DNA of 64,000 nt, taken from NCBI GenBank assembly GCA_017993835.1, contig JAGOLX010000020.1, positions 1-64,000 of the forward strand, in the 5' to 3' direction. Source of the stretch: Phycisphaerae bacterium. GTDB taxonomy: Bacteria; Planctomycetota; Phycisphaerae; Sedimentisphaerales; Anaerobacaceae. The stretch's first letter is position 1. Each line of letters opens with the position of its first letter. Below are positions 1,511 to 23,619 of the stretch, in pieces. The position numbers and the translations under genes were made by a program. The notes under the pieces were generated by a model that was given only the letters and a program-made list of their open reading frames with translations, searched no databases and was not told the origin of the DNA.

Positions 1511-1550
1511 GTCAGTATGGACTTGGGCACAATTGAATGGAAGTAGGCAT

Positions 1551-4500: not shown

Positions 4501-7500
4501 CGGACAACGACGCCTCCTGGGCCCTTACGAACGCCGTGACGATGACCTCCGACAAAGAGGTGACCGTCAGCTTCACGCAGCCGCGGACCCTGATGGTTCC
4601 CGGCCAATACCCGAACATTCAGTCCGCGGTGGATGCCGCGAGAACCCACGGCGACTCGGTCGTGGTCAAGAGCGGCACCTACTACATCAAGCGGCCCATC
4701 AACTTCGGCGGCAGGGCGATCACGCTGAGCAGCTCGAACCCGGACGATCCGGCCTGCGTCGCTGCGACGGTCATCGACTGCGACGATCCGAACGTGACCG
4801 ATCCGGACCTGTTGGGCGAATGCCGTGCGTTCACGTTCGACAGCGGCGAGGGGACCGATTCGGTCATCGATGGCTTCACGATTCGCAACGGGAACGGTCA
4901 CGACGCAGGGGGCGATCCATACACCAGCCCCGGCACCGCGACCAACGGCACCACCGCCTACGGCGGCGCTATTGCCTGTTTCAACGGAAGCAGTCCGACG
5001 CTGTCCAATCTGATTATTCAGAACTGCAAGGCGTATGGCCAGCTCGGGGGGGCCGCCAGGACGACGGCGGATGCGCCGGATGCTGCTGCGGCGACGGCCG
5101 ATGCTGAGGAGGCGTTGGAGCAGGATCCGGACCCGGATCCGCGGGACCCGAATTCGACCGATCCGAACGCCCCGGCGGATCCGAATGCCGGCATGCCGGG
5201 AGCGAATGGCGCGAACGGCAATGATGGTGCGGCGGGTCAGGACGGCCAGGCGGGCGAGCCCGGCCTGGACGGCGGCACCGCTGGTTCCGCCTATGGCGGC
5301 GCTTTCTACTTCGACGCCAACAGCGCGCCGATCATTCTCAGTTGCACGATTACCGACTGCTGCGCCGTCGGTGGCGACGGCGGCGTCGGCGGCCAAGGCC
5401 AGGATGGTCAGGACGGTCAGACCGGCCAGGCCGGCCAGGATGGTCAGCAGGGCCAGAACGGCGGCGAGCCGGCGGAAGGCACCGATGGCGCCCAGGGCGC
5501 CGGCGGCAACGGCGGCAACGGCGGCGCCGGCGGCAACGGCGGCAAGGGTGGTGACGGCGGCAACGGCGGCAAGGGCGGTGACGGCGGTGAAGCCCTCGGC
5601 GGCGCCATCTACTTCGGACCCAACTGCCGACCCACGATCAAGTACACCACGATCCTGGGCTGTTTGATTCGCCAGGGCGTCGGTGCTGACGGCGGATCTG
5701 CCGGCGCCGGTGGCGCGGGCGGTGATGCCGGCGCGGGCGGTCTCGGCGCCGATGGCGGCGATGGCGAGCCCGCCGGAGCAGCGGGTGCCGACGGCGCTGC
5801 CGGCACAGGCGGCAACGGCGGCAACGGCGGCAATGGCGGCGCCATGGGTAGCAACGGCGCACGCTGCCTGGGTGGCGGCATCTACTTCGGCGAGAACTGC
5901 CAGGCGGAAATCTCCGACACGGTCGTCAGTGGAAGCTTTACTGACGTGGACGCGGCTACGGAGGTCTACCCCGGCGGCGCAGGCGGCAACGGCGGCGCCG
6001 GCGGCAGCGACGGCGGCAATGGCGGCAACGGCGGCAATGGCGGCGACGGCAACGCAGCCGGCGCCTTGGGCACGGGCGGTTCCGGCGGCGCCGGCGGCGG
6101 CGCCGGCGGCAACGGCGTTCCCGGCTTGACCGTCAGCTATCCCGTTCCGCTGGCCAACTACGGCGGCGGCATCTACTACGGCGAGGGCTGCTCCGTCGTC
6201 CTGACGAGATGCACGATCAGCAACAACACCGTCCACGAGGACAACGGCGGCGGCGAGTACTACAGCGACAACTGCACCACGGTCCTGACGAACTGCACGA
6301 TCAGCGGGAACATCGCGGGCACGGAGCCCGAGGACCCCAATTTCATCCTCGACGGCTATGCCCACGGCGGCGGCCAGGCCTTCGGCGTCGGCTGCTCGGC
6401 CACCATTGTCGGCTGCACCTACAGCGGCAACGTGGCGGAAGGCGACGGCGGCGGTCTCTACGTCTGGTATGAGTGCGACATCGACATCAACGACTCGACG
6501 TTCACCGGCAACGACGCCAACACGCCGCAGGACAGCGCCGGCGGCGGCATCTATGCCGGCGGCGTCCTCGACATCGACACGTGGACCTACTACAACGGCG
6601 GCACGATCCGCGTGCAGAACAGCACGTTCACCGACAACGCCGCGGCCTTCGGCGCCGGCATGTACTGGTACGGCAACGACGCCGACGTGCTCGTGGCCGA
6701 CTCGGCGTTCCGCACGAATACCGCGGAGCACGGCGGCGGCCTCTACTGGAACCGCGGCGCGCCGACGATCAGCGGTTGCGTCATTCGGGGCAACACGGCT
6801 ACCGGCGCCACGAGCACCGTCCTTACCGAGGACGTCGACGAGAACGATCCGAACGTGGTCAACCTCGTGGTGTCGAACACCGAGGCGGACTGCGGCACTG
6901 GCGGCGGTCTGCACTGCCTGGATTCCGACGCGCTCATCCAGAACTGCTACCTCAGCGAGAACATCAGCAACGGCACCGGCGGCGGCGCCTACTTCGCCAG
7001 CGGCCGGCCGATCGTGAACAACTGCCTGGTCAACGGCAACACGGCCGCCATCGGTGGCGGCGGCATCGCCTCTCAGTGGGATGCGGCGCCGACGATCAGC
7101 AACTGCACGATCGTCGAGAACGGAGCCTCGGACTCGAGCAACGGTTTGACCCGCGGCTACGGCGGCGGTCTGTTCTGCTCCTACGAGAGCCAGACCATCC
7201 TGATGAACAGCATCCTGTGGGGCAACACGGGCCGCTACGGCAGTCAGATTGCCATCGGCAGCAAGGACGACCCGACCTATCTGCAGTACCCCGCCGGTCT
7301 GACGGTGAAGTACTGCGATATCCAAGGCGGTCAGCCGGGTGTCCACATCGAAGGCGGACGCACCCTCAACTGGCTCGCGGGCAACCTCAGCAGCGATCCG
7401 TTATTCGTGGCCCCCTACTTCCTGAGCCAGGCCGCGGCGGGCCAGCCGCAGACCAGCCCGGCGGTGGATGCCGGCAGTGCCCTGGCCAGCCAACTGGGTC

Positions 7501-10500
7501 TTGATTCCGCCAGCACGCGAAGCGACAACGTCGCCGACGCGGGCCCGGTGGACCTGGGGTACCACTACATCGGCCAGGGCCAGTACCAACTGACCGTCAC
7601 CATCATCGGCGGCCACGGCACCGTGCAGCCGCTCGGAGGTCGCTACCACGAGTTGCAGACGGTGACCCTCACCGCGATCCCCGATCCGAACTACCGCGTC
7701 CGGGTGTGGACGGGCACCGACGACGATCCGGCTTGGGACGACAACACCAACACGGTGACCTTCAGCGGCAGCGACATCGCGGTCACGGTGGAGTTCGAGC
7801 CGGACCTCATCAACGAGCTGCTCGTGCCCGCAAACTATGCGACGATCGAAGATGCCGTCGCGGCGGCCGGGCAGGGCGGCACGAAGATCGTGCTCGCCGA
7901 AGGGACCCACACCGTCTCCTCCCCGGACGGCATCGATTTCGAAGGCAAGACGATCGTCATCACGTCGCTCGACCCGAACGATCCGAGCGTCGTTGCCAGC
8001 ACGATCATCGACGCCGCGGGCGACTCGTTCAGTCCTCGCCGTGCGTTCCACTTCCACAGCGGAGAGGACCCCAATTGCATCATCACCGGTGTTACGATCA
8101 CCAACGGCTACGTCCGCGGCGAGCGAGGCGCCGACGGCCGGTTCGGCGTCATTCAGCCCAACCCTTACGATGGGCTGCCGATTGATCTTTACGATCCGCT
8201 GAGGCCCCGCGCGGAGCGCGGCGCCGACGGGACCGGCGACTCCTACGGCGGCGCCGTCCTGTGCGAAAACGGCAGCTCGCCCCTGTTCCGCAATTGCGTG
8301 ATCACCGGCTGCATCAGCACCGGCGGCCACGGCGGCACCGGCGCGGAAGGCCAGACCACCACGCCGCAGCCCGACTATCCGACGGACTGGACTTATCTGC
8401 CGCCAGCCACGGCGGAAGATCCCGATCCCACTGAGCAGACCACCGGCGATGGGCAGTGGGGCGGCTACGGCGGCACCGGCACAGGCATCGGCCACGGCGG
8501 CGCCCTGGCCTGCCTCGACGGGAGCAATCCCCTCCTGATCAATTGCGTCTTCTCGAACAACACCGCCTACGGCGGCATGGGCGGCGACGGCGGCGATGGC
8601 GGCAACGGCAGCGGCGACGAGAGCTGGGGCGGCGATGCAGGCCACGCGATCGGCGACGGTCGCGGCGGCGCCATCTATTGCGGGACCGGTAGCGCCCCGG
8701 TCATTCGCAACTGCCAGTTCCTGAACAACTTCGCCCGCACGGGCGTCCCCGGCCTGGGTGGCGCCAGGGGCTCCGGAAACACGCTGGATGCCCCGTATGG
8801 GCCTGCCGACGACGGCAGCGACGGCCTCACGATCACGTACGGCGTGGCCACCGGCGGCGCGATCTTCTATGACTCCCAGAGCAGCGCAGACATTGTCGAC
8901 TCGAACTTCGTGACAAACCAGGCCTTCACGGCCGTCCTCGCTACCGTCGCAGGCGGCGTCTACTCCGAGATCCAGACCGATACGAAAGGCGGCGCCATCT
9001 ACGCCGTCTCGGGCTGTGCCATCGATTTGGATGGGTGCCAGTTCCTCAATCACAACGGCGGCGCCCTGTACATGGTCGCCCGGTCCGCGGCGGATGTCAA
9101 TGACTGCCTGTTCACGGGCAACGCGAGGAAGGACCGCTCCCTGACGGACTACATTGGATACACTCCCACGTCATCTCTGCTTACCATGAGCCAGGGGGCG
9201 AGCGCCGATGTCTCGACGACCTTCGAGGGCGGCGCCATCTACATGGGGGTCGGCTCCTCTCACTTCAACGTGACGAACTCCCAGTTCTTCGGCAACGTAA
9301 CCGACGATCGCGGCGGTGCGGTTCGCACCCGGTCCAACGCCACGGTCAAGAACTGCCTGTTCGGCAGCAACGAGGCCGCGAACATCGGCGGCGGATTCGA
9401 CGCCTACTATGAGAATGGCTATCCGGCGGCCAGCGCGATCCTGACGGTGAACTTCGAGCGATGCCTCTTCACCGGCAACCGCGCCTACAAGAACACCGAA
9501 GGCTGGGGTGGCGGCGTCTACCTCAAGGACGTCAACGCCGTATTCAACGATTGCAGCTTCGTCAACAACCGAGCCCGCAACGGCGCCGGCCTGACCGCCT
9601 CGGGCGGCGTTGTGACGTTGGCCCGGGCAGTGGTCCACGGCAACACCGCCATCGGCTCCAGCACCGGCGGCGACGTGGGCGGCGGTCTGCTCTTCGCCGA
9701 GACCCCGGCGACGATTACGGACAGCCGGTTCAGCAATAACGTGGTTCAGGGTGTCGACGCCGCCGGCGGCGCGATCTGCTTCTACGGCGGGTTCATCGAG
9801 CACGTGGTCAAGAACTGCCTGTTCACCGGCAACTCGTCGAATGCCTACGGTGGCGCGGTCTCCTGCACCGCCTATGCGACGCCCAAGATCAGCTTCTGCA
9901 CGTTCGTCGAGAACACCGCACGGACGCTGGGCGGCGCGATCTACACCGACTGGATGTCCGATGTCTCGGTCAACAACTCGATCTTCCAGGCCAACGACCA
10001 TCGCAGCATCGGGTCGGTGGACTCCGACGAGGACAACCGGATCGCCTGCTGCCTGTTCCACAATAACCCGGACGGCGACTACGGCCTGTACGACAGCGCC
10101 ACGGGACAGACCAGCCAGGCGGCGGGCGACAGTCTGGGCACGACCAACCTGACCGGCGACCCGCTGTTCGTGGCGGGTCCGCTGGGCGACTACTACCTCA
10201 GCCAGGTCTCGGCGGGCCAGACCGCGGACAGCGCGGCCCTCGACCAGAGCAATCTACTGGCCTCCGACAGCGGCATGGACCAGTACACCACGCGGACCGA
10301 CAACGGCCTGGACAGCGGCAACGCCGATCTCGGCTACCACTATCGCGATGCCACCGGGCTGCCCCACTACACCCTGACCGCGAGCGTCGGAGACGGCAAC
10401 GGGACCGTCGCGCCCACGAGCGGGACGTACTACGCCGGCACGCTGGTCGTGCTGACCGCGACGCCGGTCGCGAACTACACGCTCGCCCAGTGGACCGGCA

Positions 10501-13500
10501 CGGATGACGACGCGTCCACGTTGATGGAAAACCCCGTCATGATGTGGTCCGATCGCACGGTGGTCGTCACGTTCGCCAAGGCCCGGATCATTCGAGTGGA
10601 CGACAGCGCCTACCGCGGGAGCATCCAGCGGGCGATCGAAGACGCCAACAACGGCGACACCGTCGTGGTGCCGACCGGCACGTACAGTCCGCACTACATA
10701 GGCAACCTCTCTGCGCCGATCGTCATCGAAAAGGCCATCACGCTGACCAGCGAGAATCCGGACGACCCGGATTGCGTCGCAGCTACCGTTATCGATCACG
10801 TTCAGTTTATGGTCGCGACGACGGATGGTGAAGCGACCATCGAGGGCTTCACGATCACCAACCGCGATGTAAGCGCTATGCAAATCCTGAGTTGCTCGCC
10901 CACGCTGCGCAACTGCGTCTTCACGAACTGCCGGATACCTCGCACCGATAACCCGAACAACACAATTCCTGCGGACGATGGTCCCGACGGTGATCCTGCT
11001 TATGGCGGCGCCATAGACATCGAGGGCGGTTCGCCCACGGTTGTGGGATGCACCTTCAGCGGGTGCTCCGTCACGGGCGGCCGCGCAGGCGACGGCGACG
11101 GCAATGCCAACGGTCAGGGACATGACGGTGGCTGGCCCGGCTATGCCTACGGCGGCGCCGTCTACTGCGCCAGCGGCAGTCCGACGTTCACGAATTGCCG
11201 CTTCGTGGATTGCTATGCTCAGGGCGGTATTGGCGGCAAGGGCGGCAACGGAAACCCGGCGAACAACCCCCCGGGACGCGGCGGCGGTTTCATCGGTTCC
11301 GATGCTGAAGAGGAAGAGTATGCCTTGGAAACCGGGTGGAATGGCGAGTGGCTGTATGGTCCCTATATGGACTACTGGAAGTACAGCGGGTACGGCGGCG
11401 CCGTCTACTGCGAGTACGGCAGCTCGATCAGGTTCGTCAACTGCACGTTCGAGAACAACTACGTCCTCAGCGGGCTCAGCGGCATCGGTGGTGATTCGTT
11501 CGTTCCCGAACTCAGTCGAATGCCGGAGCAGCCGGTCGACATTGAATGCTTCGGCGGTGCCTTGTACGCAGGCTACAACAGCAGTTATGAGCTGGTGAAC
11601 TGCACGTTCAGTGGCTGCTGGGCGGAACGCGAATTCGATCCGAACGGCGTGCCGGGCGGCCCAGCCATCACAGGCACCGAAGTCCTCTATCCGGATGATC
11701 CGTACCTCGGCTACGGCGGCGCGGTGGCCATCGAGGAGTCCAGCTCGATCACGATGATGAACTGCACGATCGTCGACTGCAACGCCACGATCGGCGGCGC
11801 CATCTACGCGGCGGATTCCGAACTCGGCCTGGCCGACTGCAACCTGGCGACCAACACCGCCTATCACGGTGGGGCCGTCTACCTCGCCGAGGGGACGGGC
11901 ACGATCGACGGCTCGACCTTCTTCCGCAACGTCGCGGACTACGAGCCCAACGACGTGTACCGAATCTTCGACGCCAATCTCTACCAGGTGGGCACGATGT
12001 TCAGCAACGGCGGCGCCTACTTCGGCGTCACCTCGCCCGTGCAGATCCTCAACAGCACCTTCCGCGAGAACGAAGCCAGCGCCTCCGGCGGCGGTCTCTA
12101 CTTCACCGGCGCCGCGGAGCCGCTCCTGCAGAACTCCCTCGTGACCCGGAACAAGGCCGGTCGCGACGGCGGCGGCGTCTCCGCCAAGTGGTATGCCGAT
12201 CCCACGATCTCCAACTGCACCTTCACCGAGAACAAGGTCACCGGTGCGCTCGGAGACGATCCCGGCTACGGCGGCGGTCTCTACGTCTCCTATAACAGCA
12301 GCGCCACGGTGATCAACTCGATCCTGTGGGGCAACTTCGGAGTCGACGGCGCCCAGTTGGCGATCGGCAGCGGGAACGACGACGGCGTATACGCGTCCGG
12401 CGTGACGATGTCGTACAGCGACATCGGACCCGCGTTCGACCCGAACGACATGATCGATCCGCTCGCGACGGTCGCGAAGTCCGGCGTCCAGGCGGAAACC
12501 TCCGTCGGCGCGACCGCCGGAGGCGACGTCCTGATCGACTCCGCCACGATCGACGCCGAGCTCGCTTCCAAAGGCAGCGCCGCGGTCATCGTGACGCTCC
12601 ACGAGCCCGACGGACGCGATGCGGTCGATTGGAACAGCCGCGAGGCCGTGGTGCAGTTCCAGGCCCGGCTCGCCAATCGGCGGGCGACCGTCCTCAATGC
12701 CTTCCAGCCGGGCGAGTTCACCGCTCGCCAGACGTACGCGAACGTGGCCTCCTTCTCCGGCCAAGTGACCAAGGCCGGTCTGGACCGCCTGAAGACCAAC
12801 CCCTCGGTCCGGCACATCGAGCCGGTCCGCTACGCCAAACTGGCGATGCGCCAGGCTCTGGCTCTGGGCAACGCCCGGGAGATCCGCCACACCTACAACG
12901 GGCGGGGCATCTCCATCGCCATCGTGGACTCGGGTGTCGATTACACGCATCCGATGCTTGGCGGAACCGGCAACGCCGCGACGAGCACCTTCCCCAATGA
13001 GAAGGTGATCGGCGGCTACGATACCGCGGAGAACGACCCCGATCCGATGCCGGTGGTCGTGGCACACGGCACATGCTGCGCCGGCATCGCGGCCGGCGAA
13101 CTCGCCTCGGTCGAGGATTACATCGGCGGCGTCGCCTATGGCGCTCGGATCTACGCTCTCAAGATCGGAGCGGACGACGGGAACATCCCGACGGACGCCG
13201 CCCTGGGAGCTTGGGACTGGTGCATCACCCACCGCAATGACGATCCGGAACACCCGATCAAGGTCATGAGCAATAGCTGGGGCCTGAGCGTGGCGTTCGA
13301 CGACGCCAATGTGGCGGATGCCTATTCGCCGAGCATGGCGGTTCTGGCCGACACGGCAGTCAGCGTGGGCATCACGATCGTGGCGGCCTCGGGCAATGAG
13401 TTCTTCACCACGGGAATCGGCTGGCCGGCGGCCATGTCCAATGTGATCTCCGTGGGCGCCTTGTACGACGTGAGCGGTCTTGTGACGGACTACTCCAATG

Positions 13501-16500
13501 CGGCGGAGAACCTGGATGTCCTGGCGCCTGCCGACCCGGTCTACACGCCGGATATGGTCGGCGCCGCGGGCTACGACGCCGGCGATTACTTCCCATCCTT
13601 CGCCGGCACGTCGTCCGCCACGCCGTTCGTGGCCGGCTGCGTCGCCTCGATTCAACAGGCGGCCCTCGAACGGCTCGGCAGGTACCTCACTCCTGCCGAG
13701 GTCGAGGAACTCATCGAGACCACCGGCGACCTGGTGACCGACACGAAGGTGGCGATCACGAAGCCCCGAGTGAACCTCGGTGCGGCCCTGACGCTGCCCA
13801 GCGGTCCGCCGATCTACATCGGCGCCGACTGCGAGCTCAACGGCTGGCTGGCCGCGGAAACCGCGACGTACCCGACGTGGGATTCGACCCTGTGGGGCGC
13901 CGATGCCGGCGTCATCGTGGCCGATCCGTGCTTCATCTCCGGCTACTACCTGAGCCAGACGGCGGCGGGACAGGACTCGCAGAGCCCGGCGGTTGATGCC
14001 GGCAGCGACTCCGCCCAGACCATCGGCCTGGCGGATCGTACGACCCGCATCGACGGCGTCTTCGACGCCAACCGCGTGGACCTCGGCTACCACTACGCCG
14101 AGGCGGTGCCGGTCTATCAGTTGACCGTGACCGTGGTGGCCGACTCGAGCGGCCAGACCCACGGCGCCGTGCAGCCCGGCAGTGGTTCTTATCTGGAGGG
14201 TACGGAACTCGCTCTCAAGGCGGTGCCCGAGACGGGCTACTACCTGCAGGGTTGGTATGACGCGAACGATACGCTCCTGTCCCTCCGGCCCGAGTACAAC
14301 GTCGTCGTGGACGCGAACCGGGTCCTGCGAGTCCGGTTCCGTCTGCCCGAGGAGATCGTGGTCGGCAGCGAAAAGGCCACCGGGATTCAGGAGGCGGTCG
14401 ATTCGGCCGCCAACGGCGACACGATCATCATCTCGGCGGGCGTCTACAGCGGCTCGATCAACCTGCGCGGCAAGCAGATCCGTCTGACCAGCACGAATCC
14501 CGACGATCCTGCGGTCGTCGCTCAGACGGTCATCGACTGCGGCGCCTCGGGACGCGCCCTGATCTTCAACAGTGGCGAAGGTCCCGACACGATCATCACC
14601 GGCATCACGATCATGAACGGCGCCACCTTGCAGGAACCCGGCGCCGCGGTGTACATCGGCGCGGGCTGCAGCCCGACCTTCATCAACGTCATGATCAGCA
14701 ACTCGGCCGTCTCGTTCTCCAGCGGCGGCGCCGTCTACATCGGCGCCAACGCCAACCCGACGTTCACGAACGTGCAGATCGACAACTGCCACGCATGGAA
14801 CGCGATCGTTGTTGATACGGGCCAACCCTTCGGCGCCGGCAGTGCAGGCGCGGTTTACATCCACACCGGCAGCAGGCCGACGTTCACCAACTGCTCGTTC
14901 ACGAACTGCACGGCACTCGGCTACGGCGGCGCCATCTACTGCGGCCCGGACGGCCTGGCGACGTTCACGAACTGCCGGTTCACCGCCAATGACGCCAACG
15001 ATCGCGGCGGCGCGGTCTATCACGTGTCTGGAGCGGCCTCGAAGTTCGTCCAGTGCACCTTCTCGGAGAATGCGACGGACCTCCTCGGCGGCGCCGTGTT
15101 CTATGGTCGCGAATGCACCATCGAGGTGAGCGACTGCAACTTCACGGAGAACCTCGCCGACGAGAGCGGCGGCGCCCTCTACCTCAGCGACCAGTGCGCC
15201 GGCTCGATCGGCCGCAGCGTGTTCACGCACAACGACGTGAACGAGGCCGGCGGCGCGATCTACATGACCGGCAGCAGTATCGAGATCGCCGACTGCAACG
15301 TGGCCTACAACTCGGCCCATCGCGGCGGCGGCCTGTACTGCTACGATACGCCGGATTCGAAGATCCTGCGGTGCTCGATCAAACACAACGAGGTCCTGGG
15401 CGTCCAGCGGCAGTTCTTCCTGCCCATCGACGGCACGTCCGCTCCGATCTCGCCGACCGATCCGAACTTCGTGTACGACGTGAACGCGGTCGTGATCGAG
15501 AACGTTCGCGGCGGCACGGCGGCGGCCCAGGGCGGCGGCGTCTATGCCTACGCCGGTCCGGCGCTGATCTCGGATTGCCAGATCAGCCACAACGCGGCGG
15601 CCACCTCGGGCGGCGGTTTGTACCTGACGGCCGGCCGGTCCGATCTCCGGACCCTGTTCAACTGCCTGGTTACGGACAACTCGGCCGGCAGGGACGGCGC
15701 CGGCATCTCCTGCAGTTGGCAGGTCAACGCTCGAATCGCCAACTGCACGATCGGCAACAACTCCGTCAAGAGCCTCGCGGGAGAGGCGCTCGGAGCCGGT
15801 GTCTACGCCGGATACGGGTCCAACGTCGTCGTGACGAACTCCATCGTGTGGGACAACGTCAGCAGCGACAACGGCTCGCAACTGGCCGTCACGGGCGAGA
15901 CATCCAGCCCGTCCGCCATGCAGGTGACCTATAGCGACGTCGAGCCCAGTCCCGATCCCAGCGCCTCCGCGGTGGGTCTGGACATGGTCTTTGTGATCGA
16001 TTCGACGGACACGATGATCCCCTCCATGAGGTACGTCCGGGAGGCGGCGGCCAAGATCGCCAATGCGATCGACGCCAATGTCGCCGACTGCCGCATGGCG
16101 GTCGTGGACTTCCGCGACTTCAACGATACGGACCGAGCGGGCGGCGTCGCGACGGACTACCCGTACCGCGTCGTGACCCCGTTCACCGAGGACGTCGACA
16201 CGGTCGTCAGCGCGATCAACTCGGTCACCGCGGTGGCCGGCGCCGGCGGGCCTGAACTGGCGGAGTCGGTCTACTATGCCCTGACTCAAACGGCCGATGC
16301 CAATGACCTCGACGAATGGCGAACCGGGCGCGTGGCCCGCGTCGTCCTGCTGATTGGCGACGGCGTGCCGCACAATCCGGAACTCGTCGTGGGCTATCGG
16401 CTCAGCGATGTCGTCGAGGCCCTGTCGAGGGAGTCGAGCAAGAGGGTCCACACCCTCCAGATCGGCGAGGCCAACGACGTGCAGGCCTACTACGAGGCCC

Positions 16501-19500
16501 TGGCGAACCTGACCGACGGCGTTGCCGTGCAGGCGACGGATGCCAACGACATGACGGTGGAAACGGCCGCGGTCGTGGCGGGCATTCTGCCGCTCACGAG
16601 GGCCGGGTCGTCGATCTACGTGGCCGACGGCTCCACGCTGTCGGGCTGGAATGCCGGCACACAGACCTGGGACCCGAATCTGGGCAATATCGATGCCGAC
16701 CCGTACTTCCTGGCGGGCTACTACCTGGACCAGACGGCGGCCGGCCAGTCGCGTCAGAGCCCGGCGATCGACGCCGGAAGCGGATCGGTCGATCCGAATA
16801 GCAGTCTGGGCGCCCGCACCACGCGTGCCGACGGCGTTGCCGACTCCGGCACTGTGGACATGGGGTACCACTACGCCCAGGGTGTGACGCTCTATACGTT
16901 GACGGCCCAAGTGCTGCCCGACGCAGCCGACGGGTTGGTGCACGGCATTGTGACGCCTGCCATCTCCGTGGTGTACGAAGGCTCGACCGACAACGTCATC
17001 CGCCTGGAAGTGAAAGCGGAAGACGGCTGGCGGGTCAAGGCCTGGACGGGCACCGACGACGACACGTTGACCAGCCTGGTCAATTATGTGACGCTCACGT
17101 CGGACCGGCAGGTGACCGTCACTCTGCAACAGCGCACGGCCCGGGTCGTTACCGTGCCGGGCGACTACACGACCATCCAGGGGGCCGTCACGGCCTCCGA
17201 AGACGGCGACACAATCCTCGTCGATCCGGGTACCTACTACAGTGGATACGGCGACGTCGGCCTGATCATGAGCAAGGAGATCACCGTTACGTCCCGTAAC
17301 CCGGACGATCCGTGTGCGGTGGCCTCGACGGTGATCAGCGGCCCCGGCGGCATCGGCGGCAACACCTGGAGCCGCCTGGGCGTGGTGTTCACCGGTTCTG
17401 CGGGCCGGCGTACCGTGCTCAATGGCTTCACGATCGAGAACTTCGGCGGCATCGCCGATAACGGCGACGACGGAGATCGGGCCGGTGGGCATCCCAATGG
17501 CGAGGATGGCGTGCCGATCCAGGGTGCGGCCATGATCCTGCTGCCTGGCGCAAGCCCGACGATCAAGAACTGCGTGATCCGCAACAACTCCATCACCGGC
17601 GGCGACGGCGGCAACGGCGTCGCAGCCACGACGAGCCAGAACGCGGGTCGCGGTGGTTGGGGCGGTTGGGCTCGCGGCGGCGCGATCTACTGTGCGTCCA
17701 ACACCAATCCGTTGTTCGTCAACTGCACCATCGAGAACAACTCCGCGCAAGCCGGCAGCGGTGGCAACGGCGGCGCCGGCGTCGATAGCGGCGGTCTGGC
17801 CAACTATGGCGGCAACTACACTCCGTCCCTGCCCATCGACATCGATCCCGACAGGCTCGGGGCGACCGCGGTCGCGAAGGACCTGTGGAGGATCTGGGAA
17901 TGGGACTATGCCACCTACATTCAGATGGTCTTCGCGTCCGAGAGTGTCTCCCTCAGCGTGAGCAACGTGCCTTTGGGCGGTGGCTCGTACATCGGTGATT
18001 ACCGCTGGTACTCCGCCTACGGCGGCGGCGTCTTCATCGATGCCGCAAGCAAGGCCGAGTTCGTCGAGTGCACCCTTCGTGGCAACAGCACCGTCGGCGG
18101 CATGACCGGCCAGGGCGGCGCCCAGCCGCCGACCGGCAGGCTCACCGAGCCGTTGACCGCCTTCGAGGTGCCCAGCTACGGCGGCGCCGTCTACTGCGCC
18201 GCCGACACGGTGGTGGCGTTCCGAGGCTGCAACTTCGAGAACAATACCGCCTCGGCCGACTCCGGCAACTTCCGGTCGGATCCCTACGTCGGCTTCGGCG
18301 GCGGCGTCGCAGCCGAGTACTCCGCCAGCGTGTCCTTCGAGGACTGCAACTTCGTGGATAACGAAGCGGATACCGGCGGCGCCGTCTATCTGGCCGACGC
18401 GGTCGCAAGCCTGATGGACACGATCCTGGCGACGAACACCGCGATCCGCGGCGCCGGTGTGGCCGGCGTGGGCGGCGAGATCGGCATCGCCGGTTGCGAG
18501 GTGAGGAACAACATCGCCATCGTCAACGCCGGCGACGTTGCCGGCGACGGGGTCGTGGCCGCGGGTGCGGGCATCTTCTTCTCGTCTGCGAGCGGTACGA
18601 TCCAGGACTGCAACATCGCAGGCAACTCCGCCGACGGCTCCGGCGGCGGCATCTACCTCCGCGGGGAGGACAGCACGTCGATCGTCAACTGCCTCATCCG
18701 CGGCAACCTGGCGACCCGCGACGGCGGCGGCATCTCGACCAACTGGTATGCCACGCCGATGATCCGGAACTGCACGTTCTACGCGAATCAGTCCATCGAT
18801 CCGAACAACGACCAGGTGGGTCTCGGCGGCGGCCTGTTCTGCGGCTACTTCAGCGATGCCAACGTCGTCGATTGCATCTTCTGGGAAAACGGCGGCCGCC
18901 TCGGGACGGAACTGGCGGTCGGGACCGGCTTCGATCTCGATCCGCATTGCGGTACGCTCCGTGTGTCGTACAGCGACATCTTCGCCGGTCCGAACGACGT
19001 GTACGTCGATGTCGGCTGCACGCTGGTGTATGGCGAAGGCATCCTCCGCAAGGATCCGAAGTTCGTGGAAGGCCCGCTGGACAACTTCTACCTGAGCAAC
19101 AAGAGCCCGTGCGTCGATGCCGGCAGCAGCCTGGCCAGTGTGGTCGGAATGTCGCGGTACTCGACGCGAACGGACAGCGAGCCCGACACCGGAGTGGTGG
19201 ATATGGGATACCATCACGCGATCCTCGAGCCGTGCAAGTTCTGCGACCTCGTCTACGACGGCGAGATCACGTTCGAGGACTTCGCGAAGTTCGCCAGCCA
19301 GTGGCTCAGCACGGGCTGCTCTGCCTCCGATGGCTGGTGCAACGGCGCCGACTTCACGTTCGACTCGGCTGTCGATGCCTTCGACCTGGCCTTCTTCGCA
19401 GATTGCTGGTTGGTCAAGGACGAGACCGCTCCGCTGCCGAATCCGTCCGCGTGGGCAGTCGAGCCGTACATGGCCGACGATAGCGCCGCCCGGATGGTGG

Positions 19501-20357
19501 CCGTTGAGGCGGTCGATTCCTGGGGTTGGGATGTCGAGTACTACTTCGACTGCGTCTATGGCGACGGCCACGACAGCGGCTGGATTACGAGCCGGTCCTA
19601 CGTGGACAGCGGCCTGGCCAAGGGTGTCGAATACGGCTATCGCGTCAAGGCGCGTGACCTCTCGCCCTGGCGCAACGAGACCGAGTGGTCCGAAATCAAG
19701 ATCGCCGGAACCGCCGATAGGGTGGCGCCGACGCCCGAGCCGTACATCCAGTCGATCTCTGCCGTAGCGGGTTCCTATACTTCGATTACCATGGCGGCCA
19801 GGATTGCCTACGATGACAACGGCGTCCAGTACTACTTCGATGCCAACGAAGCGGACGGCGGCCACGACAGCGGCTGGATCGACAGCCAGGTCTACACCGA
19901 CGTGAATCTACCGCCGGAGACGACGCACTGCTACCGCGTCAGGGCCCGCGACCTCTCGGCCGCGAACAACCAGACCGAGTGGTCCGGCTGGATCTGCGCT
20001 ACGACGAATGTGGCGCCGGAGTCGGATCCCCCGACGCCCAGCCCGATGCAGTTCGATCCCAACGAGATGCCGCACGAGGTCTATGGCGGTCTCGGCAACT
20101 GGGACTACTACGCCGAGATGACGGCAGTCACGGCGACCGACCCCAGCGGCGGGGTACAGTACTACTTCCTGTGCGAAGAGCCCTACGATGATGAATATCC
20201 GGCTGGCTTCTCCAGCGGCTGGCAAGATGATCCGACGTGGTCCGTCCCGGTCGGTGGCAAGAACCGGAGTCTGCGGTTCAAAGTCAAGGCCCGTGACGTA
20301 TACGGCAATGAGACGGAGTACTCGGATTGGGCGAAGATGACTATCATTGGTCAATAA
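1551..20357 (+). CDS. Giant exported multidomain protein: two subtilisins, six beta-helix modules, VWA, dockerin-like, Fn3-like
   Basis: A 6,268-residue secreted protein. ATG 1551 is chosen over TTG 1533 because GGAAGTAGG precedes it at SD distance. Order: signal peptide (about 1-32); prodomain; S8 protease with Asp192, His248 (HGTYVAG) and Ser421 (SGTSVAAPH); six right-handed parallel beta-helix modules, each opening with an 'IQxAVxAAxxGDT' motif and the first five closing with InlB/Listeria-type repeats (WTGTDDD). Module 2 carries Gly-rich collagen-like loops (about 1219-1523). Module 4 contains an inserted I9 prodomain plus a second S8 domain (Asp3793, His3839, Ser4021; about 3627-4084). 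Module 5 contains an inserted VWA domain (about 4800-5019, MIDAS-like DSTDT). A dockerin-like segment (about 5894-5957) and three Fn3-like repeats ending in 'KARD.. ETEWS' finish it. Coils show Asn/Cys ladders (TFTNC, GGAIYC). Likely a cell-surface or extracellular protease/adhesin. A terminator follows. The protein family is recognisable; the substrate is unknown. Confidence 0.93.
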   Translation: MKEQIQERPSAWRLLISSMLIVCAQVSLAAAGELSLSSLSDTIGLQGTSSDGGGALLVRFVDSDTAPQTCPDLLGPRTQRARRAAIANAVVEGADVATQYDEVVPGLSLVTLPQGISPAEAALRFTACADVLYAEPNYKYQLDRTPNDAMFAQQWALNNTGQSGGLLDADIDATEAWNTTTGSKDVIVAVLDTGIDPTNADVALNLWQNSKETKGTSGTDDDGNGYIDDFSGYNFIGDNTDLTDEVYHGTYVAGIIGAYGNNQIGIAGVCWNVGLMICKVADADGVNLDAAVAAVQYATASGAKVINASWSGPAYSKSLRDAIEAAGEKGILFVASAGNGSANTDNVGAQVYPAGYDLYNIISVMATNSRDQMAATTNCGLHSVDIAEPGEEILSTMPMTATDVMTEIGLAPEYGTLSGTSVAAPHVSGVCALMRSKSGALTYHQIKQILMQTSDKVVPGLCQSHGRVNAANALAMIPTGTLGRVLNTRDDPNDTASFYTSLQEAIDDANDGDTLIAEGGTTGTKLFLERIDFKGKAITVRSGNLANPSDPTLYPDTTVILGLATEGSVVTFAHGEGRDTVLKGFTVAWGVADYGGGISCVDASPTISDCIIRNNHARLYGGGMDCLGGSPEIVDCVIHDNVAYDATAFGGGLNFQDAEPTITSCTIRNNSSQGAGGGIAFANSSGTIFNSFLLNNSAVGGSGQIDLDASSPTITNCTILVEDGTPARDGGICAFSGSSPTITNCILWGNGDDLFGCWATYSCIEDEDGGAGNIHAQPNFTQGPNGVYFLSQTAAGQTLGSPCVDAGDPNTGTSVAAMTTRTDGVADSGAPDLGAHYTAFAASYYPLTVTVIDANGAPVDANDAWGTVDPNAGSYRLFEVVQVTAKVRDGYRIKRWVGTPDDTQKDSALTFTVSGPINLQVEFEPVPLYRLVTRVAGRWKVEGSDESCAISPDHSRGVYYREGQVVTVTAIPVGTYIIDRWTGTDNDASWALTNAVTMTSDKEVTVSFTQPRTLMVPGQYPNIQSAVDAARTHGDSVVVKSGTYYIKRPINFGGRAITLSSSNPDDPACVAATVIDCDDPNVTDPDLLGECRAFTFDSGEGTDSVIDGFTIRNGNGHDAGGDPYTSPGTATNGTTAYGGAIACFNGSSPTLSNLIIQNCKAYGQLGGAARTTADAPDAAAATADAEEALEQDPDPDPRDPNSTDPNAPADPNAGMPGANGANGNDGAAGQDGQAGEPGLDGGTAGSAYGGAFYFDANSAPIILSCTITDCCAVGGDGGVGGQGQDGQDGQTGQAGQDGQQGQNGGEPAEGTDGAQGAGGNGGNGGAGGNGGKGGDGGNGGKGGDGGEALGGAIYFGPNCRPTIKYTTILGCLIRQGVGADGGSAGAGGAGGDAGAGGLGADGGDGEPAGAAGADGAAGTGGNGGNGGNGGAMGSNGARCLGGGIYFGENCQAEISDTVVSGSFTDVDAATEVYPGGAGGNGGAGGSDGGNGGNGGNGGDGNAAGALGTGGSGGAGGGAGGNGVPGLTVSYPVPLANYGGGIYYGEGCSVVLTRCTISNNTVHEDNGGGEYYSDNCTTVLTNCTISGNIAGTEPEDPNFILDGYAHGGGQAFGVGCSATIVGCTYSGNVAEGDGGGLYVWYECDIDINDSTFTGNDANTPQDSAGGGIYAGGVLDIDTWTYYNGGTIRVQNSTFTDNAAAFGAGMYWYGNDADVLVADSAFRTNTAEHGGGLYWNRGAPTISGCVIRGNTATGATSTVLTEDVDENDPNVVNLVVSNTEADCGTGGGLHCLDSDALIQNCYLSENISNGTGGGAYFASGRPIVNNCLVNGNTAAIGGGGIASQWDAAPTISNCTIVENGASDSSNGLTRGYGGGLFCSYESQTILMNSILWGNTGRYGSQIAIGSKDDPTYLQYPAGLTVKYCDIQGGQPGVHIEGGRTLNWLAGNLSSDPLFVAPYFLSQAAAGQPQTSPAVDAGSALASQLGLDSASTRSDNVADAGPVDLGYHYIGQGQYQLTVTIIGGHGTVQPLGGRYHELQTVTLTAIPDPNYRVRVWTGTDDDPAWDDNTNTVTFSGSDIAVTVEFEPDLINELLVPANYATIEDAVAAAGQGGTKIVLAEGTHTVSSPDGIDFEGKTIVITSLDPNDPSVVASTIIDAAGDSFSPRRAFHFHSGEDPNCIITGVTITNGYVRGERGADGRFGVIQPNPYDGLPIDLYDPLRPRAERGADGTGDSYGGAVLCENGSSPLFRNCVITGCISTGGHGGTGAEGQTTTPQPDYPTDWTYLPPATAEDPDPTEQTTGDGQWGGYGGTGTGIGHGGALACLDGSNPLLINCVFSNNTAYGGMGGDGGDGGNGSGDESWGGDAGHAIGDGRGGAIYCGTGSAPVIRNCQFLNNFARTGVPGLGGARGSGNTLDAPYGPADDGSDGLTITYGVATGGAIFYDSQSSADIVDSNFVTNQAFTAVLATVAGGVYSEIQTDTKGGAIYAVSGCAIDLDGCQFLNHNGGALYMVARSAADVNDCLFTGNARKDRSLTDYIGYTPTSSLLTMSQGASADVSTTFEGGAIYMGVGSSHFNVTNSQFFGNVTDDRGGAVRTRSNATVKNCLFGSNEAANIGGGFDAYYENGYPAASAILTVNFERCLFTGNRAYKNTEGWGGGVYLKDVNAVFNDCSFVNNRARNGAGLTASGGVVTLARAVVHGNTAIGSSTGGDVGGGLLFAETPATITDSRFSNNVVQGVDAAGGAICFYGGFIEHVVKNCLFTGNSSNAYGGAVSCTAYATPKISFCTFVENTARTLGGAIYTDWMSDVSVNNSIFQANDHRSIGSVDSDEDNRIACCLFHNNPDGDYGLYDSATGQTSQAAGDSLGTTNLTGDPLFVAGPLGDYYLSQVSAGQTADSAALDQSNLLASDSGMDQYTTRTDNGLDSGNADLGYHYRDATGLPHYTLTASVGDGNGTVAPTSGTYYAGTLVVLTATPVANYTLAQWTGTDDDASTLMENPVMMWSDRTVVVTFAKARIIRVDDSAYRGSIQRAIEDANNGDTVVVPTGTYSPHYIGNLSAPIVIEKAITLTSENPDDPDCVAATVIDHVQFMVATTDGEATIEGFTITNRDVSAMQILSCSPTLRNCVFTNCRIPRTDNPNNTIPADDGPDGDPAYGGAIDIEGGSPTVVGCTFSGCSVTGGRAGDGDGNANGQGHDGGWPGYAYGGAVYCASGSPTFTNCRFVDCYAQGGIGGKGGNGNPANNPPGRGGGFIGSDAEEEEYALETGWNGEWLYGPYMDYWKYSGYGGAVYCEYGSSIRFVNCTFENNYVLSGLSGIGGDSFVPELSRMPEQPVDIECFGGALYAGYNSSYELVNCTFSGCWAEREFDPNGVPGGPAITGTEVLYPDDPYLGYGGAVAIEESSSITMMNCTIVDCNATIGGAIYAADSELGLADCNLATNTAYHGGAVYLAEGTGTIDGSTFFRNVADYEPNDVYRIFDANLYQVGTMFSNGGAYFGVTSPVQILNSTFRENEASASGGGLYFTGAAEPLLQNSLVTRNKAGRDGGGVSAKWYADPTISNCTFTENKVTGALGDDPGYGGGLYVSYNSSATVINSILWGNFGVDGAQLAIGSGNDDGVYASGVTMSYSDIGPAFDPNDMIDPLATVAKSGVQAETSVGATAGGDVLIDSATIDAELASKGSAAVIVTLHEPDGRDAVDWNSREAVVQFQARLANRRATVLNAFQPGEFTARQTYANVASFSGQVTKAGLDRLKTNPSVRHIEPVRYAKLAMRQALALGNAREIRHTYNGRGISIAIVDSGVDYTHPMLGGTGNAATSTFPNEKVIGGYDTAENDPDPMPVVVAHGTCCAGIAAGELASVEDYIGGVAYGARIYALKIGADDGNIPTDAALGAWDWCITHRNDDPEHPIKVMSNSWGLSVAFDDANVADAYSPSMAVLADTAVSVGITIVAASGNEFFTTGIGWPAAMSNVISVGALYDVSGLVTDYSNAAENLDVLAPADPVYTPDMVGAAGYDAGDYFPSFAGTSSATPFVAGCVASIQQAALERLGRYLTPAEVEELIETTGDLVTDTKVAITKPRVNLGAALTLPSGPPIYIGADCELNGWLAAETATYPTWDSTLWGADAGVIVADPCFISGYYLSQTAAGQDSQSPAVDAGSDSAQTIGLADRTTRIDGVFDANRVDLGYHYAEAVPVYQLTVTVVADSSGQTHGAVQPGSGSYLEGTELALKAVPETGYYLQGWYDANDTLLSLRPEYNVVVDANRVLRVRFRLPEEIVVGSEKATGIQEAVDSAANGDTIIISAGVYSGSINLRGKQIRLTSTNPDDPAVVAQTVIDCGASGRALIFNSGEGPDTIITGITIMNGATLQEPGAAVYIGAGCSPTFINVMISNSAVSFSSGGAVYIGANANPTFTNVQIDNCHAWNAIVVDTGQPFGAGSAGAVYIHTGSRPTFTNCSFTNCTALGYGGAIYCGPDGLATFTNCRFTANDANDRGGAVYHVSGAASKFVQCTFSENATDLLGGAVFYGRECTIEVSDCNFTENLADESGGALYLSDQCAGSIGRSVFTHNDVNEAGGAIYMTGSSIEIADCNVAYNSAHRGGGLYCYDTPDSKILRCSIKHNEVLGVQRQFFLPIDGTSAPISPTDPNFVYDVNAVVIENVRGGTAAAQGGGVYAYAGPALISDCQISHNAAATSGGGLYLTAGRSDLRTLFNCLVTDNSAGRDGAGISCSWQVNARIANCTIGNNSVKSLAGEALGAGVYAGYGSNVVVTNSIVWDNVSSDNGSQLAVTGETSSPSAMQVTYSDVEPSPDPSASAVGLDMVFVIDSTDTMIPSMRYVREAAAKIANAIDANVADCRMAVVDFRDFNDTDRAGGVATDYPYRVVTPFTEDVDTVVSAINSVTAVAGAGGPELAESVYYALTQTADANDLDEWRTGRVARVVLLIGDGVPHNPELVVGYRLSDVVEALSRESSKRVHTLQIGEANDVQAYYEALANLTDGVAVQATDANDMTVETAAVVAGILPLTRAGSSIYVADGSTLSGWNAGTQTWDPNLGNIDADPYFLAGYYLDQTAAGQSRQSPAIDAGSGSVDPNSSLGARTTRADGVADSGTVDMGYHYAQGVTLYTLTAQVLPDAADGLVHGIVTPAISVVYEGSTDNVIRLEVKAEDGWRVKAWTGTDDDTLTSLVNYVTLTSDRQVTVTLQQRTARVVTVPGDYTTIQGAVTASEDGDTILVDPGTYYSGYGDVGLIMSKEITVTSRNPDDPCAVASTVISGPGGIGGNTWSRLGVVFTGSAGRRTVLNGFTIENFGGIADNGDDGDRAGGHPNGEDGVPIQGAAMILLPGASPTIKNCVIRNNSITGGDGGNGVAATTSQNAGRGGWGGWARGGAIYCASNTNPLFVNCTIENNSAQAGSGGNGGAGVDSGGLANYGGNYTPSLPIDIDPDRLGATAVAKDLWRIWEWDYATYIQMVFASESVSLSVSNVPLGGGSYIGDYRWYSAYGGGVFIDAASKAEFVECTLRGNSTVGGMTGQGGAQPPTGRLTEPLTAFEVPSYGGAVYCAADTVVAFRGCNFENNTASADSGNFRSDPYVGFGGGVAAEYSASVSFEDCNFVDNEADTGGAVYLADAVASLMDTILATNTAIRGAGVAGVGGEIGIAGCEVRNNIAIVNAGDVAGDGVVAAGAGIFFSSASGTIQDCNIAGNSADGSGGGIYLRGEDSTSIVNCLIRGNLATRDGGGISTNWYATPMIRNCTFYANQSIDPNNDQVGLGGGLFCGYFSDANVVDCIFWENGGRLGTELAVGTGFDLDPHCGTLRVSYSDIFAGPNDVYVDVGCTLVYGEGILRKDPKFVEGPLDNFYLSNKSPCVDAGSSLASVVGMSRYSTRTDSEPDTGVVDMGYHHAILEPCKFCDLVYDGEITFEDFAKFASQWLSTGCSASDGWCNGADFTFDSAVDAFDLAFFADCWLVKDETAPLPNPSAWAVEPYMADDSAARMVAVEAVDSWGWDVEYYFDCVYGDGHDSGWITSRSYVDSGLAKGVEYGYRVKARDLSPWRNETEWSEIKIAGTADRVAPTPEPYIQSISAVAGSYTSITMAARIAYDDNGVQYYFDANEADGGHDSGWIDSQVYTDVNLPPETTHCYRVRARDLSAANNQTEWSGWICATTNVAPESDPPTPSPMQFDPNEMPHEVYGGLGNWDYYAEMTAVTATDPSGGVQYYFLCEEPYDDEYPAGFSSGWQDDPTWSVPVGGKNRSLRFKVKARDVYGNETEYSDWAKMTIIGQ
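5206..6120 (+). repeat. Collagen-like / Gly-rich coding repeats inside beta-helix module 2
   Basis: Four Gly-rich blocks (about 5206-5280, 5367-5588, 5683-5852 and 5971-6120) are separated by ordinary beta-helix coils (GGAFYF, GGAIYF, GGGIYF). The first two show Gly-X-Y periodicity (GQDGQAGEPGLDGG, GQDGQTGQAGQDGQQGQNG). The others are GGNGGNGG/GGKGGDGG runs. At DNA level these are tandem GGCGGCAAC and GGCGGTGAC units. They look like loop expansions on successive coils of one solenoid. Confidence 0.88.
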
Positions 20358-20537: not shown

Positions 20538-21872
20538 CTACGCCTGCTCGACTCGGCTTCGGATCGCCTGGTATCCGTAGTGCATCATGAGGTGGTCGAG
20601 GATGACCAAGGCGGTGTAGTTCTCCGCGACCGGCCAGATCCTGGCGACGATGGTCGGGTCCCGGCGTGTGATGGCCGCGAGGGCCTTGTTCTCCAGCGTG
20701 TACTTGTCGATCGTCTGCTGCGGCCTGGCGATGGTCGGCGTTGGCTTGACCGCCAGGCGGACCACGATGGGCTGACCGGTGGTCAGGCCGCCGGTGATGC
20801 CGCCGGCGTTGTTCGACTGGAAGGCCACCCTGCCGTTCACCGCATGCATCTGGTCGTTGTCCTGGTAGCCGGTCATGTCCTTGACCGCGAATCCCGCTCC
20901 GACCTCGACGCCCTTGACGGCGCCGATGCCGAGCATCCGCCCGAGTTCCGCATCGAGCTTGGCGAAGACCGGCTCGCCCAGGCCGACCGGGACGCCCAGC
21001 ACGATGACCTCGACGACCCCGCCGGCCGAGTCGCCCATCTGGCAGATCCGGTTGCAGGCATCGACCATGGCCTGGGCGGCCTCGACATCCGGGCAGTTGA
21101 GAACCGGGTGTACGCCGTACCGCTCGCGGACCTCCTCGGGCGACATGTGCGGCGCCCTGTCGCGGATCTCGTCGATCTCGTTCTCCACCTGGGCCAGGAC
21201 CGCGGCCTTCTCCAGCAACCGCATGTCCATGTTGAGCCGACCCTTGACGTAGAGTTCCTGGTAGAACGGATCGAGATCCCGCCGCATGGTCTTGTAGTCG
21301 TTCGCGGATCGCAGGGCCGCCTCGTGCGGAATGTCAGGACAGCGAACGCCCGCGATCTCCTTGGCGTAAGCGAAGACCTCGATGCCGCACTTCCGAAGGA
21401 CCTTCTTAGCGACGCAGCCGGCCGCGACGATGGTCGAGGTATAGCGCCCGCTGAAGATGCCTGCGCCGATGGCGTCATCGTCCGGGCCGTACTTCACAAA
21501 ACTGGCATAGGACGCGTGGCCCGGACGGGGCGTGCGGTTCGTGTCCTGGTACTGCTTGATGTGGACGAAGTGGCGGTCCAGGTTCGGGATCAGGATCGTC
21601 AGAGGGGTGCCGTTCGTGTGGTTCTTGTTGCCTGCGTTTTCGATCGTGTCGGCGGCGTTCACGCCCGTGTAGATGATCGGCAGGTCCGGTTCCTTGCGCG
21701 GGCTGGACAGCTCGTCCGCGCCGGGCTTGCGAAGCAGCAGGTCGCCGTAGATCTCCTGCTCGGTCAGCAGAATCCCCGGCGGGACGCCCTGCAACATGCT
21801 GGTGAGTCCTTCCTGATATGAGCCACCCGCGACGGTGACTTGAAACAAGCGTCCGAGATGACATCCGAGCAC
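20538..21872 (-). CDS. Chorismate synthase paralogue with altered active site
   Basis: 444 residues, start GTG with AGGAG about 8 bases upstream. It clearly belongs to the chorismate synthase family: it keeps the second His motif RPGHA (about 116-120), KYG, the MGDSAGG stretch corresponding to DNDSVGG, NNAGGITGGLTTGQPI and AVKPTPTIARPQ. It has lost hallmarks that the neighbouring AroKC retains. The first catalytic motif FGESHG reads AGGSYQ (about 15-20, so Glu to Gly and His to Tyr). GGGRSSxRET reads AIGAGIFSGRYT (about 134-145). It is longer than the 350-390 usual for AroC, with extra residues around 45-75 and 155-240. It is the third gene after aroA and aroKC, 139 bp downstream on the same strand. 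It is probably not a standard chorismate synthase. It could be a regulatory or scaffold paralogue, or an enzyme with a different substrate. Confidence 0.85.
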   Translation of the reverse strand: MLGCHLGRLFQVTVAGGSYQEGLTSMLQGVPPGILLTEQEIYGDLLLRKPGADELSSPRKEPDLPIIYTGVNAADTIENAGNKNHTNGTPLTILIPNLDRHFVHIKQYQDTNRTPRPGHASYASFVKYGPDDDAIGAGIFSGRYTSTIVAAGCVAKKVLRKCGIEVFAYAKEIAGVRCPDIPHEAALRSANDYKTMRRDLDPFYQELYVKGRLNMDMRLLEKAAVLAQVENEIDEIRDRAPHMSPEEVRERYGVHPVLNCPDVEAAQAMVDACNRICQMGDSAGGVVEVIVLGVPVGLGEPVFAKLDAELGRMLGIGAVKGVEVGAGFAVKDMTGYQDNDQMHAVNGRVAFQSNNAGGITGGLTTGQPIVVRLAVKPTPTIARPQQTIDKYTLENKALAAITRRDPTIVARIWPVAENYTALVILDHLMMHYGYQAIRSRVEQA

Positions 21873-22011: not shown

Positions 22012-23619
22012 CTACCGGCGGTTCCAGTCGGGACGGAGACGGTCCTGCACCTCCCACGCGTCCAGCAAGGCCAGGGCCGCCATGCTCTCGATGACCGGAA
22101 TCACGCGAGGGACAATGCACGGATCGTGTCGGCCGTGTGTTTCGATGGGCTGGTTCCGCATTCCCGTGTCCAGCGTTCGTTGCGGCTTGGCAATGGAAGA
22201 CGTGGGTTTCACCGCGATTCGCAGGATGACAGGCTGGCCGGTGGAGATGCCGCCGGTGATGCCGCCGGCGTGGTTGGTGAGGAACCCGCCGTCGGCCATG
22301 TTGTCGTTCGATTGACTGCCTCGCATTCGCGTCAACTGGAAGCCTTCGCCGATTTCGATCCCCTTGATGGCGCCGATGGTCATGATCGCAGCAGTCAGTC
22401 GCGAATCCAGCTTCTGAAACACCGGATCGCCCAACCCCGCGGGCAGGCCGTGAATCTCAAGCTGCACGACGCCGCCGACCGAGTCGTTGTCCTCCTTGGC
22501 AGCGAGGATTGCCTGGACCATTCGCTCGGCCGCCTCCGGATCGGCACAGCGGACCGGATTGGACTCGATGGTTTCATAGTCGCATCGGTTCGCCGTGATT
22601 CCAGCGATTTCGACCGCGTGGGCGACGATCCGCACGCCTCGTTGGGTCAATTCCTGTCGCGCGAAAGCGCCCCCCAGGACGCGGCCCGCGGTTTCCCGAC
22701 CGGAGGACCGACCACCGCCGCGATGGTCGCGGAGGCCGTACTTGCGATAATAGGTGAAGTCCGCATGCCCTGGGCGAAAGAGGTTCTTGATCCCTTCGTA
22801 CTTGGAGGAATCGTGGTCCCGATTGAAGATCGCCATCGCGATGGGGGCGCCCGTGGTCTTGCCTTCGAACACGCCCGAGAGGACTTCCACCTGGTCCTTC
22901 TCGTCGCGGGGAGTGGTCACGGCGCTTTGGCCGGGCCGGCGACGGTTCAGTTGCGTCTGGATATCCTGGGCCGAGAAATCGATTCCCGGCCTGACGCCGT
23001 CGAGGACCGCGCCGATGGCTGGTCCGTGGCTCTCGCCGAAGGTGGTGACGCGGATGATGTCGCCGTACGTGTTGGCCGCCCGGCTGCGGATGGTCAGCTC
23101 CTCGACGATGTGTCCCATCGCGATCTGTGCGATCTGCTCGGGCGTCCTGTCCGTAGTGTCGATCACCGCGTCCGCGTACGGGCCGAGCAGTTCCGCGCGA
23201 TAGGCGACGTTCCTGTCGAGCTGGGTCCGGGCGTCCGGCCCGCGCAGCCAGGGCGGCAGGCCGTCCTGGGCGATTCGGCTCCACAGCGTCGTCGGATCGG
23301 CCGTCAGGTAGATGAGGATCGCGTTCCGTCGCAGGGCTCGTCGGCTGGCAGGGTCCAGCAGGCTCGATCCCCCGCAGACGATCAACTTCCAGTCCGTCTC
23401 GGCCAGCTCGATGGCGACCTTTCTCTCGACGGTGCGGAATTGCTGCTCCCCGTGCTCGATGAAGATCTCTCGGCAGGTGTGTTTCTCGCCGGTGTCTCGT
23501 TCGAAGCATTGTTCGATGAGACGATCCGTCTCGATTGCCTCCAGGCCGGTCAACTCCGCCAGCTTCGCCGCGACGGAACTCTTTCCCGCACCTTTGGGGC
23601 CGGCCAGAACGATCTTCAC
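22012..23619 (-). CDS. aroKC: Shikimate kinase-chorismate synthase fusion
   Basis: A 535-residue bifunctional enzyme for two non-adjacent shikimate-pathway steps. Residues 1-175 are shikimate kinase: P-loop GPKGAGKSS (7-15), Asp of ETDRLIE, VCGGSS, and the lid arginines around WLRGPDARTQLDRN. Residues about 183-535 are chorismate synthase with all signatures intact: TFGESHG (His198), RPGHAD (His285), GGGRSSGRET (301-310), DNDSVGG, RGSQSNDN and NHAGGITGGISTGQP. This would phosphorylate shikimate and later convert EPSP to chorismate; AroA, the intervening enzyme, is encoded immediately upstream. The GTG start overlaps the aroA TGA by four bases (GTGA), implying translational coupling. The bare symbol aroKC is my descriptive label for the fusion. 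Function is secure from motifs. Confidence 0.94.
   Translation of the reverse strand: MKIVLAGPKGAGKSSVAAKLAELTGLEAIETDRLIEQCFERDTGEKHTCREIFIEHGEQQFRTVERKVAIELAETDWKLIVCGGSSLLDPASRRALRRNAILIYLTADPTTLWSRIAQDGLPPWLRGPDARTQLDRNVAYRAELLGPYADAVIDTTDRTPEQIAQIAMGHIVEELTIRSRAANTYGDIIRVTTFGESHGPAIGAVLDGVRPGIDFSAQDIQTQLNRRRPGQSAVTTPRDEKDQVEVLSGVFEGKTTGAPIAMAIFNRDHDSSKYEGIKNLFRPGHADFTYYRKYGLRDHRGGGRSSGRETAGRVLGGAFARQELTQRGVRIVAHAVEIAGITANRCDYETIESNPVRCADPEAAERMVQAILAAKEDNDSVGGVVQLEIHGLPAGLGDPVFQKLDSRLTAAIMTIGAIKGIEIGEGFQLTRMRGSQSNDNMADGGFLTNHAGGITGGISTGQPVILRIAVKPTSSIAKPQRTLDTGMRNQPIETHGRHDPCIVPRVIPVIESMAALALLDAWEVQDRLRPDWNRR

Follow-up and report, generated by a model that had tools for sequence, protein, structure and literature searches.

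Can one turn of a repeated beta-helix act as a dedicated place for unrelated folded domains, and how would its contents have come to differ? The question is raised by a single open reading frame of 6,274 aa in the window, the whole stretch of 64,000 nucleotides analysed here, which forms the beginning of contig C68 in a 6.4-Mb planctomycete genome. The initial annotation had noted that a protease in module 4 and a VWA domain in module 5 of this frame lie at the same point of homologous modules, as if the helix had a 'cargo slot'. The slot finding lies entirely within this frame:

1533 to 20357 (+), giant open reading frame, in the order leader, N-terminal S8 protease, six beta-helix modules, C-terminal dockerin-like and Fn3-like segments
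2100 to 2921 (+), N-terminal S8 protease, outside any slot (Pfam, E 1e-50)

Pfam identifies in the giant the N-terminal S8 protease, beta-helix regions, InlB-type (Flg_new_2) domains that stand between the beta-helix modules, a second S8 protease and a VWA domain, as well as Chlam_PMP motif matches. The helices are of the right-handed parallel type, as indicated by matches to Beta_helix (PF13229, E down to 1e-38) and by regularly spaced strands in the predicted models. The N-terminal protease belongs to a different S8 subgroup and scores only 37 bits against the profile of the slot S8 domains. Long glycine-rich loops (GGxGGxGG) lie between the helix coils of module 2 (about 4900-6050 of the window, +). 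Just downstream of the giant are two shikimate-pathway genes, for chorismate synthase (20541-21872, -) and EPSP synthase (23619-24902, -).

The slot and its surroundings comprise the following features:

7311 to 7380 (+), empty slot of module 2, YCDI-QGGQPGV-HIEGGRTL (end alignment)
10581 to 12425 (+), beta-helix of module 4, with the final strand VTMSYSDI
12444 to 13799 (+), insert of module 4, 452 aa, an I9-like prodomain and an S8 protease with catalytic Asp, His, Asn and Ser present
12900 to 13727 (+), S8 catalytic domain inside the module 4 insert (PF00082 over most of its length)
13809 to 14102 (+), end of module 4, from strand IYIGADCELNGW to VDLGYHY
14124 to 14339 (+), InlB-type (Flg_new_2) domain between modules 4 and 5 (Pfam)
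14349 to 15941 (+), beta-helix of module 5 up to MQVTYSDV
15960 to 16601 (+), insert of module 5, 214 aa, a VWA domain with a DSTDTM metal-site motif (Pfam, model and alignment)
16611 to 16880 (+), end of module 5, from IYVADGSTLSGW to VDMGYHY
18969 to 19034 (+), empty slot of module 6, YSDI-FAGPNDV-YVDVGCTL (end alignment)

The module ends were aligned without the inserts, as MAFFT put the flanks in the wrong place when the inserts were kept. Aligned in this way, the six ends are 32-50% identical over about 115-167 columns. Modules 2 and 6 pass, just as the initial annotation described, from YCDI (at 7311) and YSDI (at 18969) straight into a turn of just 5-7 residues, and their ends read 'LTVKYCDI-QGGQPGV-HIEGGRTLNW' and 'LRVSYSDI-FAGPNDV-YVDVGCTLVY', respectively. 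The filled ends read 'VTMSYSDIGPAFDP[452 aa]SGPPIYIGADCELNGW' in module 4 and 'MQVTYSDVEPSPDP[214 aa]AGSSIYVADGSTLSGW' in module 5, and both inserts are flanked by the same two aligned strands, YSDI or YSDV before and IYI or IYV after. The flanks are thus homologous and the two insertion points, rather than lying more than one coil apart, occupy one alignment column, which is more exact than a shared coil and bears out the claim that protease and VWA domain sit at the same point. The equivalence holds in four of the six modules (2, 4, 5 and 6), since modules 1 and 3 have diverged at the slot, lack a clear YSDI strand and are uninformative there. The GC content of both inserts (66.7%, compared with 65.9% for the whole frame) gives no sign of recent import.

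Taken alone, the module 4 insert matches Peptidase_S8 (Pfam, E 9e-40) and many solved subtilisins. Its I9-like prodomain has no Pfam I9 match, but the alignment of the insert model with pro-subtilisins takes in the prodomain and extends, for example with ProN-Tk-SP, over about 480 columns. The slot S8 domain has the Asp/His/Ser triad and the oxyanion Asn, and D168, H214, N324 and S396 (insert numbering) are invariant in 33/33 S8 inserts. The module 5 insert falls just below the Pfam cut-off for VWA_2 (E 6e-5), with the copies of relatives above it, and its predicted structure resembles VWA and integrin I-type domains, which identifies a VWA fold. It carries the DSTDTM motif, and the metal-site residues D20 and D140 are invariant in 20/20 VWA inserts. 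Because the active-site and metal-site residues are kept, both the S8 and the VWA inserts are probably working domains.

AlphaFold models were obtained for modules 4 and 5 (15 and 8 sequences; mean pLDDT 67 and 75, respectively). In both, regular coils lead to the YSDI or YSDV strand, followed by the insert and then by the short IYI or IYV strand; the flanking strands are at residues 607-611 and 1078-1080 in the module 4 model and at residues 523-527 and 756-758 in that of module 5. Confidence is good for the helix, moderate for VWA and poor for much of S8 and for the C-terminal ends, and the strands C-terminal to the inserts have pLDDT under 50. The predicted structures agree with the alignment in placing the inserts between equivalent strands, an agreement that stops short of proving that the rod continues past the insert.

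Relatives of this arrangement are widespread. Across several families of the order, the region of module 4 that comprises both helix and protease has full-length relatives that are 45-74% identical; there are also free-standing proteases of about 850 aa, in which the similarity is limited to the insert. The named relatives are metagenome-assembled planctomycetes assigned to Phycisphaerales, Sedimentisphaerales, Phycisphaerae or Pirellulales. Related open frames in the same family reach 12,792, 11,548 and 10,565 aa (G073:C56, loci L061 and L062; G074:C22, L066 and L067; G083:C19, L072 and L073). A joined-flank profile detected the module end in 147 of the 161 genomes of the order and, at a stricter threshold, in 130 of the 397 genomes sampled across the class.

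We surveyed the slot in giants taken from many of these genomes, with a separate profile for each flank, which gave both flanks in 196 of 320 module ends, the remaining 124 having no recognisable upstream flank. The distance between the flanks is bimodal: 128 of the 196 paired ends are empty (25 aa or less), 68 are filled (219-470 aa) and none has a gap of 26-150 aa. Outgroup families at class level contributed only three paired ends, all empty. Filled slots contain S8 (33), VWA (20), nidogen-like (8), choice-of-anchor L (3) and unnamed (3) domains and one other, so that the homologues do hold further unrelated domains at this place, between homologous flanks, in support of the cargo slot idea. 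The nidogen-like (NIDO, E about 1e-26) and choice-of-anchor L (E 4e-74) assignments are both strong. At least five unrelated domain families, as classified from their sequences, occupy the same loop across related bacteria.

Every match of the VWA, anchor-L and unnamed-domain profiles is inside the slot, as are 8 of the 10 NIDO matches, the other two being cut at locus ends. S8 of the slot type also forms the N-terminal domain of the giants L047 and L090 and exists as stand-alone proteins, and Pfam found no cargo domain outside the slot or the N-terminus in the giant of the window and in stretches of four others. The survey was keyed on both slot flanks, so rare inserts at other places could be missed.

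The unnamed domain, of 300-323 aa, is found at L076:3904-4872, at L076:7321-8274 and in the L148 slot (aa 1547-1846 of ORF L148_-2412_3177). It ends in ITE[FL]GGG and looks propeller-like by eye; the L076 copies have no match in Pfam or NCBIfam, and one copy has none in the PDB. A sixth slot content, of 284 aa (L158:4983-5834, -), has sub-threshold matches only, to DUF6923 and DUF7394.

To account for these observations, we propose that the final turn of the beta-helix, immediately ahead of the terminal strand, is a permissive loop. In one lineage of modules, as the sequences show, this loop is open and carries a whole folded domain. Conservation of the rod strands before and after the insert makes it probable, judging from alignment and predicted models, that the extra domain projects laterally from a stiff secreted rod and leaves it unbroken. 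The contents have been exchanged over time among at least five unrelated families, perhaps by recombination between similar flanks. The exported giant may present its protease and binding domains to polymers, cells or surfaces outside, and a change of content may retool it for new targets. To this explanation as a whole, of a permissive loop, one slot-bearing module lineage, exchanged contents and an exported display rod, we assign a probability of roughly 0.78.

Exchange of contents was read from the pairs of highest identity only, as the reciprocal-best-hit table of module bodies was too noisy. An orthologous module in two genomes of one genus contains VWA in G073 and the unnamed domain in G072, with flank identities of 69% over 561 aa before the insert and, on its far side, 68% over 231 aa. 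This pair, alike on both sides and different in cargo, is difficult to reconcile with the alternative that whole modules were duplicated or moved with ready-made cargo and that the cargo itself was never swapped. The nearest flank carries another cargo or none in 22 of 68 filled modules, which also argues against such shuffling, yet it carries the same cargo in the other 46, and trees with a single clade of S8-bearing modules (p-AU 0.142) or of VWA-bearing modules (p-AU 0.102) are not rejected. We regard module shuffling as conceivable but doubtful.

Another locus, L147 (aa 560-1500 of the ORF), was considered as an orthologous empty-slot module (73% identity) and rejected. Its upstream half corresponds to the S8-bearing module of L038 and its downstream half to the next, neighbouring L038 module. 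The locus thus looks like a fusion or a deletion at the slot, in which the stretch from one slot to the next seems to have dropped out, whether by recombination or through an assembly error. Such a fusion of neighbouring modules is compatible with shuffling. If it is not an assembly error, it may also hint at recombination between similar flanks as the mechanism of exchange.

A secretin gene lies directly upstream of the giant:

115 to 1455 (+), secretin (PF00263, E 6e-30), candidate export partner

This secretin resembles PilQ/GspD/MshL-type proteins, with TPR repeats in relatives. In 30 of the 52 loci with enough upstream sequence, most of them in the family to which the window belongs, a relative of it directly precedes the giant on the same strand. 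It is absent next to the giant in loci of families f2 and f7, so the pairing is not needed everywhere in the order, and no further T2SS genes were seen upstream in L053 and L055. Judging from gene order, the neighbouring secretin probably helps to export the giant in one family of the order, and the rods would lie outside the cell. No outer-membrane barrel family was found on the giant's C-terminus, which does not place it among the autotransporters (type Va). The match to the GC-type dockerin anchor NF041540 (E 0.017, 15.5 bits) is below the cut-off of 29, and this dockerin-like C-terminus could serve as an attachment point. We suggest that the giant is likely a secreted rod presenting interchangeable catalytic or binding domains.

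Alternatively, the giant may be a polysaccharide-degrading enzyme array whose helices are catalytic and whose inserts only process or dock, with no display rod. Helices of the pectin-lyase type are often enzymes. PL6 lyases are present among the weak fold matches, but Pfam finds no polysaccharide lyase family in the giant, only the generic Beta_helix, Chlam_PMP, NosD and DUF families, and we consider this role unlikely. One giant PVC protein has been interpreted as carbohydrate-degrading (PMC12057145).

The origin of the slot-bearing lineage was approached with a tree of the flanks (158 rows, 140 columns, poorly resolved), in which filled modules cluster with their contents mixed. A tree forcing all 59 filled modules together has a higher likelihood than the one obtained without constraint (p-AU 0.805). 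A longer loop following the slot ('GW...W') is also common to the filled modules and missing in the empty ones. Both observations speak against two independent insertions into one tolerant loop, each fixed by chance and without any slot lineage, an account that would suit a turn near the helix end and the many unrelated contents of the slot and that we nevertheless find quite improbable. The initial annotation had assumed that two unrelated domains each entered one site; the tree instead favours a single origin of the filled modules with the content changed later. We conclude from the flanks that the slot probably opened once and that at least four content changes followed. An artefact of metagenome assembly or alignment is very improbable, since the same junctions recur across several families, in dozens of genomes that were each assembled separately, with frames open throughout and bimodal gap lengths, although repetitive giant genes are hard to assemble and the named relatives are MAGs.

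More broadly, the slot may be a natural plug-in, a beta-helix module type having evolved one dedicated socket in which whole folded domains are swapped while the scaffold is kept, acting order-wide in planctomycetes to retool giant secreted proteins, many with their own secretin; we would give this wider view even odds. The slot offers a natural, much-replicated example of a scaffold position that takes unrelated domains of about 210-470 residues with frame and scaffold kept. Domain insertion, mostly known from single proteins or from engineering, becomes accessible to comparative study, and the slot junctions are naturally tested permissive sites for protein display. The slot also gives a handle on the function of giant proteins in uncultured planctomycetes.

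Among known systems, the chlamydial polymorphic membrane proteins have, to our knowledge, no comparable cargo slot. Their GGA[IVL]/FxxN beta-helix repeats are like those of the giant, with its Chlam_PMP matches, but they are autotransporters (PMC10715098). Subtilisin-like autotransporters likewise combine S8 with a beta-helical stalk; their S8 domain is described as N-terminal (PMC9289746), whereas here it interrupts a turn within a repeated module. Giant genes of PVC bacteria encode, as here, predicted extracellular proteins of very large size, one of which has beta-helix domains in tandem (PMC12057145, citing West-Roberts et al., bioRxiv 2023), but a domain slot is not described in the text available from that source. 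In the open-access literature we found no report of one helix turn holding such a range of unrelated domains. Hbp and the SPATEs of E. coli have, like the giant, a right-handed beta-helix stem bearing side domains that include a serine protease (PMC3521207, PMC9289746). The side domains of Hbp can be replaced by foreign protein with the stem intact (PMC3521207), and those of SPATE passengers are described in a review as highly conserved, d2 excepted (PMC9289746). Their protease, unlike that of the slot, is N-terminal and chymotrypsin-like (S6), with export through the protein's own barrel, whereas in the giants described here a single turn of the repeated module is taken by S8, VWA, NIDO or anchor-L domains, and there is no sign of an autotransporter barrel. 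Beta-helices with side domains were thus known already from Hbp and the SPATEs; the literature searched yielded no natural slot with contents as varied as these.
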